From Streptomyces sp. NBC_01314 (GTDB lineage Bacteria > Actinomycetota > Actinomycetes > Streptomycetales > Streptomycetaceae), in the NCBI RefSeq assembly GCF_041435215.1, contig NZ_CP108394.1, positions 10,416,001-10,480,000 on the forward strand: 64,000 nt of DNA, given 5' to 3'. Positions 28,549 to 37,089 of this stretch are shown here, piece after piece. A program made the translations under genes and the position numbers. A model generated the notes under the pieces. The model ran no database searches. It was given only the letters and a program-made list of their open reading frames with translations, and was not told the DNA's origin. The first letter of the stretch is position 1; each line of letters opens with the position of its first letter.

Positions 28549-29061
28549 ATGGTGGGTTTCCGGGACTTCCTGACACGGTTCCGCCCGGCGGCCGCGCCCG
28601 GTCGCGCCGCACCGGGAGGTGTTCCGGCCGACCGCTCCGCAGAGCTCGCGGCGGAGCTCGGACCTCCGCTCGCCCTGCTCGAAGACGTACAGACGGAAGC
28701 GGAGGCGATACGCGAGCGGGCCGAGCAGGATGCCACGCGGACGCGGCGCGAGGCCGAGCGGCAGGCCGCGGAGATCATCATGGCCGCGCGGGAGGGCGCA
28801 CCTGCCGTACGGGCCCGCAGCGCGGACGGTGTCGTTCGCGAGGCAGAGGAAGAGGCGGCGGAGTTGCACACCGCAGCCGGGGCGGAGGCCGCCGCCGTAC
28901 GGAAGCGGGCAGTGACCCGGATGCCCGCACTCGTCGACCGTGTGTCCGCACTGGTGAACGACGACCTGACCGCTCTGAAGGCGGCGACGGACGAACCCCC
29001 GGGCGGGCCGGACGCGAGCCCCGCTCCCGACGGTGGCCCACGCGGGGAAGGCAACCCCTGA
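28549..29061 (+). CDS. V/A-ATPase peripheral-stalk subunit (H/G-like)
   Basis: A 170-residue, highly charged protein with a central helical stretch rich in Ala, Glu and Arg (about 45-115, AEAIRERAEQDATRTRREAER), typical of the stalk subunit that pairs with subunit E. It would form the peripheral stator linking the soluble head to membrane subunit I. It is the first gene of the operon, behind GTGAGGAGA, and its stop overlaps the next ATG in TGATG. The assignment rests on composition and position, since such stalk proteins share little sequence. Confidence 0.65.
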   Translation: MVGFRDFLTRFRPAAAPGRAAPGGVPADRSAELAAELGPPLALLEDVQTEAEAIRERAEQDATRTRREAERQAAEIIMAAREGAPAVRARSADGVVREAEEEAAELHTAAGAEAAAVRKRAVTRMPALVDRVSALVNDDLTALKAATDEPPGGPDASPAPDGGPRGEGNP

Positions 29062-30086
29062 TGGGCTCGGCACGCGTGGCCGGTGTGACCCGGGCACGGG
29101 CCCTGCGCACCAGACGTCTGGGCGCGGACGGTGTCCGGGAGGTCGCCGCGTGCCGGACGCTCGACGACGCGCTGCACTACCTGACGGCCACCGCCTACCG
29201 CCACGACGTCACGCCGGGCGGCTCCCTGGCCGAAGCGCAGCGGGCGGTGACGGCGACCTTGCTGTGGCATCTGCGGATCCTCGCCGGCTGGCAGTCGGCG
29301 GACGGTGCCGGCGCCGTTCGCGCACTCGCCGCGGGTTTCGAGATCTCCAACGCCGAAGGGCATCTGCGGACGCTGGTCGAGCCGGACCCGGATCAGGGCG
29401 TGGCCACCGCGCCGGACCGAGAGCGGCGCGACGGGAACCCCCCGTATCCGGACTCCCTCTCTCCGGGCAGGCGTTCGCCGCCCGCCCCCTACCGCCTGGG
29501 CGCGCTGGCGACCGCATGGGCCCGGCTCGTCGCCACCCGCTCACCGTCCGAGACGCGCTCCGTGCTGGCGTCCTCCCTCTGGGGCGACCCGGGCGGCGAT
29601 TCTCCCGCTGCTGTCGCCACCGGCATGCGTGTCTCAGCGGCTGTGCGTCTCGCCGCCGCCGTGCCCGAGGCCGCGCGCTGGGCGGCGGGCCGGCTCGCCC
29701 TTCTGGTCGGGCGGGAGCGGTTCGTCGTCGAACGGGCCGTCCCGGAGGTCTCGGTCCTGCGGGCCGCCCGACTGCTCGGCCCCCGAGCGGTACGGGCCCA
29801 GGCGTACGCCGAGTTCCGGCAGGCGCTGCTGCCGCCCGCGAGATGGGCGCTGGAGGGCACCACGGAGGCGGCGGACCTGTGGCGGGCGGAAGCACGGTGG
29901 TGGACGGAACTCGACCGGGACGGCCGCGAACTGCTGAGCCGCTCCCGCTTCGGCTCCGCACCGGTGGTGGGGGCCGTCGCGGTGCTGTCCGCCGACGCCT
30001 GGCACACACGCGCCGCGTTGGAACTGGCCTCCCGGGGCGGCGGACCGGTGGACCGGCTCGCGGAGGTGCTCGGTGCTCCGGGTTGA
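29061..30086 (+). CDS. V/A-ATPase subunit C-like (central-stalk socket)
   Basis: A 341-residue, mostly helical soluble protein of the length expected for subunit C, which couples the rotating central stalk to the K ring. The N-terminal region (GVTRARALRTRRLGADGVREVAACRTLDDAL) resembles the start of C subunits, and the chain ends in a helical repeat. Similarity is weak by eye and the position between stalk and I genes is the main support. A 1-base overlap joins it to the previous gene, and it overlaps the start of subunit I by 14 bases. Confidence 0.65.
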   Translation: MGSARVAGVTRARALRTRRLGADGVREVAACRTLDDALHYLTATAYRHDVTPGGSLAEAQRAVTATLLWHLRILAGWQSADGAGAVRALAAGFEISNAEGHLRTLVEPDPDQGVATAPDRERRDGNPPYPDSLSPGRRSPPAPYRLGALATAWARLVATRSPSETRSVLASSLWGDPGGDSPAAVATGMRVSAAVRLAAAVPEAARWAAGRLALLVGRERFVVERAVPEVSVLRAARLLGPRAVRAQAYAEFRQALLPPARWALEGTTEAADLWRAEARWWTELDRDGRELLSRSRFGSAPVVGAVAVLSADAWHTRAALELASRGGGPVDRLAEVLGAPG

Positions 30087-34892: not shown

Positions 34893-36448
34893 CGGGCCCG
34901 TCCGGTGGACATGACCCGTCCGGGGAGGTCGGCGCGCCAGGCCCGTTCGGCGCCGTCGAGTACACGGCGGTGCGCGAACTCCGCGGCCCGCTCGCCGTCT
35001 TCCAAGGTGTGTCCGGGGTCGGCTGGGACGAGTACGTACGCATCACCCTCGCGTCGGGCGAACAGCGGCACGGCGTGGTCCTGGACGCCGACCGCGACCT
35101 GGCGGTCGTCCAGGTCCTGGAGGGAACCTCCGGAATGGACCCGACGGGCATCCGGGCGGCCTTCACCGGCGGCCCGCTGCGCGTCCCTGTCGGAACGGGC
35201 TGGCTGGGCCGCGTCTGCAACGGCCGCGGCGAGCCCGTCGACGGCGGCCCACCGGTCTTCGGCCCGTCCGACGCCGAGGTGGGCGGCAACCCGGTCAACC
35301 CGGTACGGCGACAGCCGCCGTCCGAGCCGGTACTCACCGGTGTCGGCGTCATCGACGCCCTGGCCACCCTCGTACGCGGGCAGAAACTGCCGGTGTTCTC
35401 CGTGGCCGGACTGCCGCACCTGGAACTGGCCGCACAGATCGCCGCCCAGTCCACCGCCGCGGGGGAGCCCTTCAGCGTCGTCTTCGCCGGTATGGGGCTC
35501 ACCCACGCCGACGCCTCCTTCGTCCGCGACGCGCTGGAGGAACGGTCGGCGGCCGGGGAACTGGTCCTGCTGCTGAACACCGCCGACGATCCGGTGATCG
35601 AGCGGATCCTCACCCCGCGGATCGCACTCACCGTCGCCGAGCACCTCGCCTTCGCCGAAGGACGGCACGTCCTCGTGGTGATGACCGACATGACCACGTA
35701 CGCGGAGGCCCTGCGCGAGGTGTCCGCCGCACGCGGGGAGATCCCCGCCCGCCGTGCCTACCCCGGCTACCTCTACAGCGATCTCGCCTCCCTCTACGAA
35801 CGCTGCGGACGTATCCGGGGCCGGCCCGGCTCCGTCACCGTGCTGCCGGTGCTGACCATGCCCGCGGGGGACATCACCCATCCCGTGCCGGACCTGACCG
35901 GATACATCACCGAGGGCCAGATCGTCCTGTCCCCCGCGACGCACGCGCGGGGCGTGTACCCGCCGCTGGACGCCCTCTCCTCGCTGTCCCGTCTGATGCG
36001 CAAGGGCGCCGGTCCCGGGCGCACCCGCGCCGACCACCTCGACGTCGCGGCGCAACTGCTGGCCGCGTTGGCCCGGGCCCGGCAGGTCCGTGACCTCGCG
36101 GACCTGGTCGGCGAGTCGGCGCTGAGTCCCACCGACCGCAGCTACCTGGACCTCGACGAAGCTTTCCTGCGCGACTTCGCCGCTCAGCGCGGCGACGAAC
36201 CGCGCACACTCGACGACGCTCTGGAACGCGCCTGGGGAGTCCTGCTCGCCCTGCCGCGTGGCCAGCTCTCCATGCTCCCCGCCCGACTCCTCGACGCACG
36301 CGGGGCGAGGGACGGTGCGAGGGAGACCAATACCGGTGGGGAGGGCGCACGGACGTCGAAGGGAGCCGCGTCCGAGGGATCCAGCAGGCCCGCGCCTGAT
36401 GCGGAGGCATCCTTCAGGGCGACGGCTCCCTCCGAGGAGGCCCCCTGA
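34889..36448 (+). CDS. ntpB: V/A-ATPase regulatory subunit B
   Basis: A 519-residue non-catalytic subunit, with no Walker A lysine motif but clear B-type segments: GRVCNGRGEPVDGGP, NPVRRQPPSEPVLTGVGVIDALATLVRGQKLPVFS, FAGMGLTHADASFVRD and YPGYLYSDLASLYERCGR. It alternates with subunit A in the head. The last 60 residues (Gly, Ser, Glu, Ala rich) extend beyond the usual end and are probably disordered. A 4-base overlap joins it to subunit A and a 1-base overlap (TGATG) to subunit D. Confidence 0.97.
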   Translation: MTGPSGGHDPSGEVGAPGPFGAVEYTAVRELRGPLAVFQGVSGVGWDEYVRITLASGEQRHGVVLDADRDLAVVQVLEGTSGMDPTGIRAAFTGGPLRVPVGTGWLGRVCNGRGEPVDGGPPVFGPSDAEVGGNPVNPVRRQPPSEPVLTGVGVIDALATLVRGQKLPVFSVAGLPHLELAAQIAAQSTAAGEPFSVVFAGMGLTHADASFVRDALEERSAAGELVLLLNTADDPVIERILTPRIALTVAEHLAFAEGRHVLVVMTDMTTYAEALREVSAARGEIPARRAYPGYLYSDLASLYERCGRIRGRPGSVTVLPVLTMPAGDITHPVPDLTGYITEGQIVLSPATHARGVYPPLDALSSLSRLMRKGAGPGRTRADHLDVAAQLLAALARARQVRDLADLVGESALSPTDRSYLDLDEAFLRDFAAQRGDEPRTLDDALERAWGVLLALPRGQLSMLPARLLDARGARDGARETNTGGEGARTSKGAASEGSSRPAPDAEASFRATAPSEEAP

Positions 36449-37089
36449 TGACAGGCGCCGCCCGCCGCACACCCCCCGGCCGCGCGGGACGGTTGCGCCT
36501 GCGGCACAACCTCGACGTCGCCGTCCGGGGTGCCGACCTCCTGGAGCAGAAGCTCCGGATCCTGCGCTCCGAACACGAACAACTACTGCGCGCCGAAGAA
36601 GCGGCTGCCCTGGCATGGCGCGACCTGTTGCCCGAGGCCGAGACCTGGCTGCTGCGCGGACTGCTCCTGAGCGGGGAGGGGGCACTCGACTCGGCCGCCG
36701 CCGGCATCGGCCCGGCCGGGGTCACGGTTCACTGGACCGCCTCCATGGGGGTACGCCATCCGGCGGAGGTTTCCCTCGCCGTACCCGCACGTGCACCCAC
36801 CGCCGCCGCTGCTTCCAACACCGCCCTGGTGCACGCGGAGGCCGCCTACCGCCGTGCCCTGCGCGCCGCCGGTGAGTACGCGGTCGCACACGCCGCCGCC
36901 GAGCTGGTGGGAGCGGAGGTCATCGGCACTCGTCACAGGGTCCGTGCCCTGCGACGTCATTGGATCCCCCGCCTGCGCGAAGAACTCGCACGGGCCGATC
37001 TCGCCCTGGAGCAGAGCGAGCACGAGGACGCCGTCCGCCGACGCTGGGCCGCCCGGGCCGCGGCGGACGACCGGTCGGCCGCCGAGTGA
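36448..37089 (+). CDS. ntpD: V/A-ATPase subunit D (central shaft)
   Basis: A 213-residue protein with the two long terminal helices of subunit D, the rotor shaft inside the AB head. The N-terminal helix is LRHNLDVAVRGADLLEQKLRILRSEHEQL; the C-terminal helix is TRHRVRALRRHWIPRLREELARADLALEQSEHED, closely matching the family pattern with TRRRVNALE and ERE-RE-F-RLK. It closes the operon; a small inverted repeat follows at 37139. With this gene all expected V/A subunits are present. Confidence 0.93.
   Translation: MTGAARRTPPGRAGRLRLRHNLDVAVRGADLLEQKLRILRSEHEQLLRAEEAAALAWRDLLPEAETWLLRGLLLSGEGALDSAAAGIGPAGVTVHWTASMGVRHPAEVSLAVPARAPTAAAASNTALVHAEAAYRRALRAAGEYAVAHAAAELVGAEVIGTRHRVRALRRHWIPRLREELARADLALEQSEHEDAVRRRWAARAAADDRSAAE

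Follow-up and report, generated by a model that had tools for sequence, protein, structure and literature searches.

V/A-type ATPases are described as broadly distributed in bacteria (PMC10656485), and the peripheral stalks of such enzymes are the subject of a review (PMC6131620). The closest described systems are the V/A-ATPase of Thermus thermophilus (PDB 5GAR/6QUM family) and the Enterococcus-type V-ATPase, the Na+ pump of E. hirae. Other Actinomycetota encode A/V-ATPases that are mostly 42-50% identical in subunit A to the one described here, among them those on Rubrobacter and Pseudonocardia plasmids; Micromonospora-related strains are described as having gained A/V-type genes, with adaptation suggested (PMC12451618), and the KEGG V-type module is listed for Nocardia seriolae (PMC5336288). 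The titles and abstracts of the open-access papers listed (subscription papers lie outside this scope) yielded nothing on the enzyme in Streptomyces or on a link to OsdR/DosR. Here we describe a nine-gene V/A-type ATPase operon (positions 28549-37089, + strand) in a stretch of 64,000 nucleotides, hereafter the window (C1:10416001-10480000), of the 11.3 Mb genome of Streptomyces sp. NBC_01314. We infer that it encodes an ATP-driven proton pump of a dormancy or stress programme, and give this reading a probability of roughly 0.55.

Domain and profile searches confirm the operon as encoding a complete, predicted second rotary ATPase of V/A type, beside an F-type enzyme whose alpha/beta-like genes lie at C1:3.83 Mb in the same genome. 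A second, V/A-type ATPase beside the F-type one had been proposed in an earlier note on this DNA, which listed nine overlapping genes for all subunits in the order H/G-C-I-K-F-E-A-B-D; the nine overlapping open reading frames (ORFs) are intact, and Pfam, NCBIfam and a profile of the first product agree with the list. The putative catalytic subunit A (590 amino acids (aa), 33120..34892) scores 637.6 bits against NF003220 (cut-off 470), and the non-catalytic subunit B (519 aa, 34889..36448) scores 586.6 bits against NF003235 (cut-off 349); an F-type identity of the two is not supported in NCBIfam, where the atpA and atpD models score far lower than the V/A models. Pfam families were also found above cut-off for A and B, for the central shaft subunit D (213 aa, 36448..37089; PF01813, 81.3 bits), the rotor cap C (341 aa, 29061..30086; PF01992, 30 bits against a cut-off of 29), the peripheral-stalk subunit E (176 aa, 32602..33132; PF01991), subunit I (629 aa, 30073..31962) and the ring subunit K (139 aa, 31959..32378; PF00137). 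Subunit F (74 aa, 32381..32605) scores 17.2 bits with PF01990, under the cut-off of 23.5. The first ORF (28549..29061, 170 aa) has no Pfam family above cut-off; a profile of 20 homologues has T. thermophilus subunit G as its best solved match (E = 7.4e-6), with profile positions 42-136 aligned to residues 24-118 of 120, and the product, H, is therefore read as the second peripheral-stalk subunit. Start codons were read from the frames (C at 29061, GTG for K at 31959, GTG for F at 32381, E at 32602). In RefSeq, the S. fungicidicus copy has A, B, D, C and I named as V-type, K annotated as an ATP synthase subunit C, and H, F and E labelled hypothetical. Elsewhere in the genome of the window, at G000:C1:10166855-10167517 (L006), a 475-aa frame weakly resembles ATP synthase (27% identity).

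Compared with the solved V/A types, alignments and profiles show a trimmed variant, in which the predicted I and F are shortened and K has gained helices. The Thermus enzyme has the same subunit classes, and A, I, K and G were matched to its solved chains; A and I are also homologous to E. hirae chains. In subunit I, an N-terminal lobe (about residues 11-147), an insert (159-291) and a membrane part (about 317-590) can be told apart, and alignments recovered the near-membrane lobe only, with neither the coiled-coil collar arm, which is typical of solved V/A members and not defining, nor the distal lobe. The median length of I is 474 aa in 70 relatives, likewise without arm and distal lobe, compared with 652 aa in T. 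thermophilus, 664 aa in an E. gallinarum relative (whose gene order is I-K-E-C-F-A-B-D) and 656 aa in the Rubrobacter plasmid operon. A wider set of I subunits comprises the best 120 of 3962, among 8000 scored. The insert (window positions 30547-30945) is Ala/Pro/Gly-rich, of low confidence and present in 0 of 21 other aligned I subunits. Subunit F lacks its C-terminal part by alignment and profile, matching residues 2-75 of a 111-aa solved F subunit (E = 0.005), and its median length is 74 aa in 75 relatives, as against 115 aa in the Rubrobacter operon and 101-115 aa in the best-matching solved F/G subunits, which are archaeal or from Enterococcus and do not include Thermus F. As the relatives' start codons were chosen by script, their subunit lengths are approximate, and short extremes (K of 36 aa) are fragments. 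Relative to Thermus G, the N-terminus of H carries a conserved extension of some 40 aa. In K, about 45 residues precede the region that matches the 99-aa Thermus chain, and the 74-aa Thermus chain is matched by residues 76-138 only; alignment, hydropathy and a structure model point to two additional N-terminal helices before the hairpin that carries Glu122. Model confidence (mean pLDDT 75.9) is low over the first 70 residues, with blocks of 53-74, so these helices may either be retained in the ring or be cut off.

The conserved machinery speaks for a working rotary ATPase, as the predicted catalytic and ion-path residues are near-invariant. Every Walker A residue of subunit A is kept in 80 or 81 of 81 sequences and Glu269 in 81/81, and alignment to solved PDB chains retains Walker A and the other catalytic residues. 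Glu122 is present in 78/78 K subunits, and Arg518 and Arg576, both of which align to arginines of the yeast a subunit, in 71/71 I subunits. Purifying selection on the operon is shown by ratios of nonsynonymous to synonymous substitution (dN/dS) below 1 in all nine genes (0.17-0.57 against relative L085, S. cyaneochromogenes, and 0.17-0.45 against L086, S. regalis, both of which have an intact OsdR/DevR-type box before the operon).

The V/A-ATPase is an accessory trait in Streptomyces, not core metabolism. At E ≤ 1e-60, subunit A was detected in 27 of 295 genomes of the genus sample (this genome included), 10 of 150 of the family sample (6/17 genera), 15 of 394 of the class sample (14/137 genera) and 93 of 396 of the phylum sample (62/236 genera), the last mostly as 42-50% identical genes of other classes. 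All but one of the genus matches (26/27) are near-complete and free of internal stops, and neither of the findings that the earlier note had named as contrary to its view, a common core gene in streptomycetes or frames broken in relatives, was made. The exception (L032, G181:C34:107086-107799) covers A residues 351-588 only in a 335-aa frame, with DNA flanking both sides, and is possibly a decaying copy. Internal stops were flagged in 23 genes of relatives and rejected as frame breaks, the stop lying near the match end, as with hits overrunning a normal stop. Inteins were likewise rejected for the 2.6-kb A matches of loci L147 and L160: with open frames of 566 and 559 aa, the match must extend into the next gene.

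Among named genomes, the best 80 of at least 233 stretches encoding a relative all bear actinobacterial names, the nearest being Streptomyces (up to 84%); they include Kitasatospora, Streptantibioticus, Mycobacterium, Nocardia, Rhodococcus, Saccharopolyspora, Lentzea, Amycolatopsis, Nocardioides, Georgenia and Dactylosporangium. Replicons listed as plasmids bear the operon in three Streptomyces records and one Embleya record. One locus (L139), titled Rhodococcus rhodnii, comes from a genome of 12.4 Mb, presumably large for that species, and its name or purity is doubtful. The complete order H-C-I-K-F-E-A-B-D on one strand, which the earlier note had proposed as a search key together with a tree, recurs in 67/80 named loci, and under a stricter rule, by which the 23 genes with a match overrunning the stop codon failed, all nine are open genes in 45/80. 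The remaining 13 include L141 and L162, without detected H and plus-strand C (L162 also without E), and L160, without F detected inside the stretch; the other incomplete loci look like contig ends. In the A tree (68 rows) the ATPase falls, by sequence, in a distinct actinomycete clade, in which 53 rows form one side of a branch with support 100/100 and a stem of 1.71; one of the 53 (G321) belongs to another class. The 17 Streptomycetaceae rows form a single group (100/99). Rubrobacter, the Pseudonocardia plasmid, G871 and eight more Actinomycetota types lie outside the clade. Mycobacterium-named rows stand at two places in the tree and a Mycobacteriaceae metagenome-assembled genome (MAG) at a third, indicating transfer or old loss. 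We note that the divergent, full-length operon of the Rubrobacter radiotolerans plasmid (L169, 626-15167) has a universal stress protein (Usp) gene upstream and a P-type ATPase gene right after B, and that the 47% identical A/V type of the Pseudonocardia broussonetiae plasmid (L168, 8567-15176) has F, A and B annotated, then a P-type ATPase, with no I, K or D annotated in that stretch.

That the operon sits in an island of stress and low-oxygen genes is the best explanation of its surroundings, and its link to dormancy is more than an impression. OsdR of S. coelicolor is tied to oxygen, stress and dormancy, and the Usp genes, PPDK and OsdR-type boxes of the OsdR and DevR (DosR) regulons are likewise found around the operon (PMC5069765); CBS, Hsp20 and Rv2632c-like genes also accompany it. 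The main text of the OsdR regulon paper contains the word "ATPase" 0 times (PMC5069765). Recurrence of the stress neighbourhood in other genera beyond chance is supported by the flanks of relatives. In flank-gene clustering of the 80 loci (window excluded), Usp proteins form the family with the widest spread outside streptomycetes (9 genera or groups), and in streptomycetes they come second (34 loci) to a CBS family (39 loci). A Usp gene flanks the operon in 14 of 19 non-streptomycete genomes compared with 0.90 expected (P = 1.7e-15, assuming independent genomes), each of these genomes encoding 12-56 Usp domains. The test covers 19 of the 29 non-streptomycete loci, the other 10 being from MAGs, with flanks of 6.8-15.9 kb; genome-wide rates are Pfam domain counts and flank counts come from a custom profile, which was built from the five Usps of the window and that of locus L146, itself among the 19 (13/18 without it). 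Usp genes also occur in the flanks of 43/61 other named loci, and a Usp frame directly follows D on the same strand in 14/77 loci with a placed D. P-type ATPase genes flank the operon in 3/19 genomes compared with 0.12 expected (P = 2.3e-4) and in 21/61 of the other loci. At the tblastn threshold applied, several non-streptomycete flanks have no gene in common with the window, the Usp link there consisting of more distant Usps.

Within Streptomyces, 18 flanks of 20 kb from 9 of the 27 matching genus genomes contain 25 Usp genes (13/18 stretches), 15 CBS places (10/18) and 42 OsdR-type boxes scoring above 14 (15/18). Because these flanks begin at the edge of A, the counts take in the remaining operon genes and the box of the operon itself. 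By contrast, 20 control stretches taken at megabase positions of 10 genomes had no Usp, CBS or boxes, with a box at 0/313 genes. In a second set of 20 controls (16 arm positions of eight genomes and 4 positions in this genome) there were 2 boxes, 1 P-type ATPase and no Usp gene, and none of the 320 genes had a box within the 300 bp before it.

Upstream of the operon, most streptomycete relatives carry a palindrome of OsdR/DevR type, apparently shared with a CBS-BON gene. With a matrix built on 25 published sites of S. coelicolor OsdR (PMC5069765, Table 1), the box scores above 8.2 in 36 of 46 streptomycete regions (window included), a level reached by 7.4% of shuffles, and above 14 in 26/46, reached by 0.2%; the shuffles preserve single-base composition only. 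The boxes lie at -98 to -132 relative to the H start in 34 of the 36, and at least 25 of the 36 have a second core at a distance of 20-22 bp, without a formal null. Identity over the 16-bp motif is 0.77, compared with 0.33 and 0.36 in the adjoining 50 bp, for 15 dereplicated loci, a value biased upwards because the loci were picked by the matrix; free of that bias is the commonest upstream 12-mer, GCCGAACGGCCC, present in 24/46 regions against a shuffled maximum of 3. The genome encodes a pair of DevR/OsdR-like regulators with 76% and 73% identity to that of locus L127 (other matches ≤45%); the gene for the second lies some 60 kb to the left of the operon and directly follows a box of 20.5. 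Regulator matches occur in 9 loci (some partial) and GAF kinase matches in 7 (one partial), query loci included, the names DevR and DevS being given from sequence likeness. Elsewhere in the window, a strong box (15334-15349, score 16.9) stands 75 bp ahead of an ORF (15417-16031) with no Pfam match, which looks like a membrane protein and may resemble Rv1733c.

The window itself encodes much of this neighbourhood. A divergent CBS-BON gene (27517..28371, - strand, start codon uncertain; PF00571 above cut-off and PF04972 about at cut-off in the longer frame) shares the promoter region of the operon, and two of the five Usp genes (PF00582) lie nearby, one convergent with the operon (37186..38103, - strand) and one at 26296..27222 (- strand). 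Two P-type cation ATPases (PF00689/PF00122) follow at 39937..42576 (+ strand) and 44436..47198 (- strand). PPDK, a pyruvate dehydrogenase-like cluster, Hsp20, CBS-BON proteins, an Rv2632c-like gene, nicotinate phosphoribosyltransferase, TrkA-like genes, a channel-like protein, a molybdopterin oxidoreductase with a NuoF-like partner and an MFS transporter are also encoded. Of the neighbours listed in the earlier note, Usp, CBS-BON, Hsp20 and PPDK were recovered; Pfam does not confirm the labels narK, with a general MFS match, and Acg, the ORF taken for it (20334-21257) having no Pfam match at 1e-5. The pyruvate dehydrogenase-like set (5024-10596) includes an acyl carrier protein and an AMP-binding enzyme, and parts of it occur in the flanks of 15-18 of 80 loci. 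A Mutator-family transposase (PF00872, 57659-58969) lies on the right-hand side of this stress cluster and may mark an edge of the island.

As an ATP-driven proton pump of the dormancy programme, the enzyme would be switched on together with that programme; A3B3 would hydrolyse ATP and turn the D/F/C shaft with the K ring, subunit I would pass ions, and the membrane gradient would be kept up as respiration fails. Sodium-type rings have Gln and Ser/Thr near the ring Glu. The ion would most likely be H+, because the ring Glu is followed by Gly with no Gln at the sodium-ring position and, compared with the Enterococcus type, no adjacent Ser/Thr; sodium specificity is disfavoured, with this motif rule as the one ground. 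The mycobacterial F-type enzyme is described as held against ATP hydrolysis (PMC11672644), and if the F-type enzymes of other actinomycetes are held likewise, maintaining a gradient from ATP would call for a second enzyme. A far more specific version, a dormancy-specific minimal V/A enzyme with one stalk attached to one small lobe of I, no collar and no F C-terminus, maintaining an ATP-driven H+ gradient in hypoxia, run by DevR/OsdR in streptomycetes and co-transcribed with Usp elsewhere, is tentative and rather unlikely as a whole.

The same machinery could run in the synthesis direction, making ATP at a lower gradient than the F-type enzyme needs under slow respiration. One ring carboxylate per K and a full rotor and stator set permit either direction, the Thermus relative makes ATP, and respiratory genes are near, namely the molybdopterin oxidoreductase with its NuoF-like partner in the window and narI near the S. 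fungicidicus copy. However, fewer carboxylates per helix favour pumping, and four K helices in the ring would halve that number. Synthesis is a possible but doubtful alternative. Less probable still is an island-borne pump for general stress or osmotic, acid or cation homeostasis with no tie to low oxygen, for which the P-type cation ATPases, channel-like protein and TrkA-type genes of the window, the P-type ATPases adjoining the divergent Rubrobacter and Pseudonocardia plasmid operons, and the general stress character of Usp and CBS genes might all be claimed; OsdR/DevR-type boxes are nevertheless dense in streptomycete flanks, and OsdR is tied to oxygen and dormancy (PMC5069765). Mobile cargo of little function, spreading horizontally with the island and often lost, would fit the patchy distribution (27/295), the plasmid-listed replicons, the scattered Mycobacterium rows and the partial A gene of G181, but is very improbable given the dN/dS of 0.17-0.57, the near-invariant key residues and the single gene order in 67/80 loci.

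Several observations weigh against the reading as an ATP-driven proton pump of dormancy or its more specific version. The operon promoter of the window has no intact box: within the region of the relatives' box (28440..28472, no strand assigned), the matrix scan finds a degenerate 16-mer (28457-28472), the best promoter score being 3.8 at about -92 compared with 11.1 for the weakest published site, so this operon is not counted as a member of the OsdR/DevR regulon. Of the 45 streptomycete relatives examined, 35 have a divergent CBS gene upstream, and the box is found in 33 of these 35 loci but in 3 of the 10 without CBS-BON; the box thus tracks CBS-BON and may serve that gene or both. Outside streptomycetes, upstream regions score above 12 in 4/24 (L129, L149, L155 and L160; 99% level of shuffles, 11.7), and a general box there was rejected with a looser DevR core, found with 0 mismatches in 3/24 and with 1 mismatch in 12/24, about as in shuffles (7% and 50%). 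The Usp P value is optimistic because its rows are related genomes, 5 of the 19 genomes have no flanking Usp, and P-type ATPase linkage is weaker than Usp linkage. Fewer peripheral stalks than the two of Thermus are predicted because only the near-membrane lobe of I would hold the stator, and stalk number is not readable from sequence.

How actinomycetes that have stopped growing maintain a membrane gradient in the absence of oxygen is still an open question. If the proposed function is true, a concrete candidate for this role, open to deletion in harmless Streptomyces, would be a second rotary ATPase linked to dormancy, and a V/A enzyme without a collar arm would test what minimum stator a rotary motor needs.

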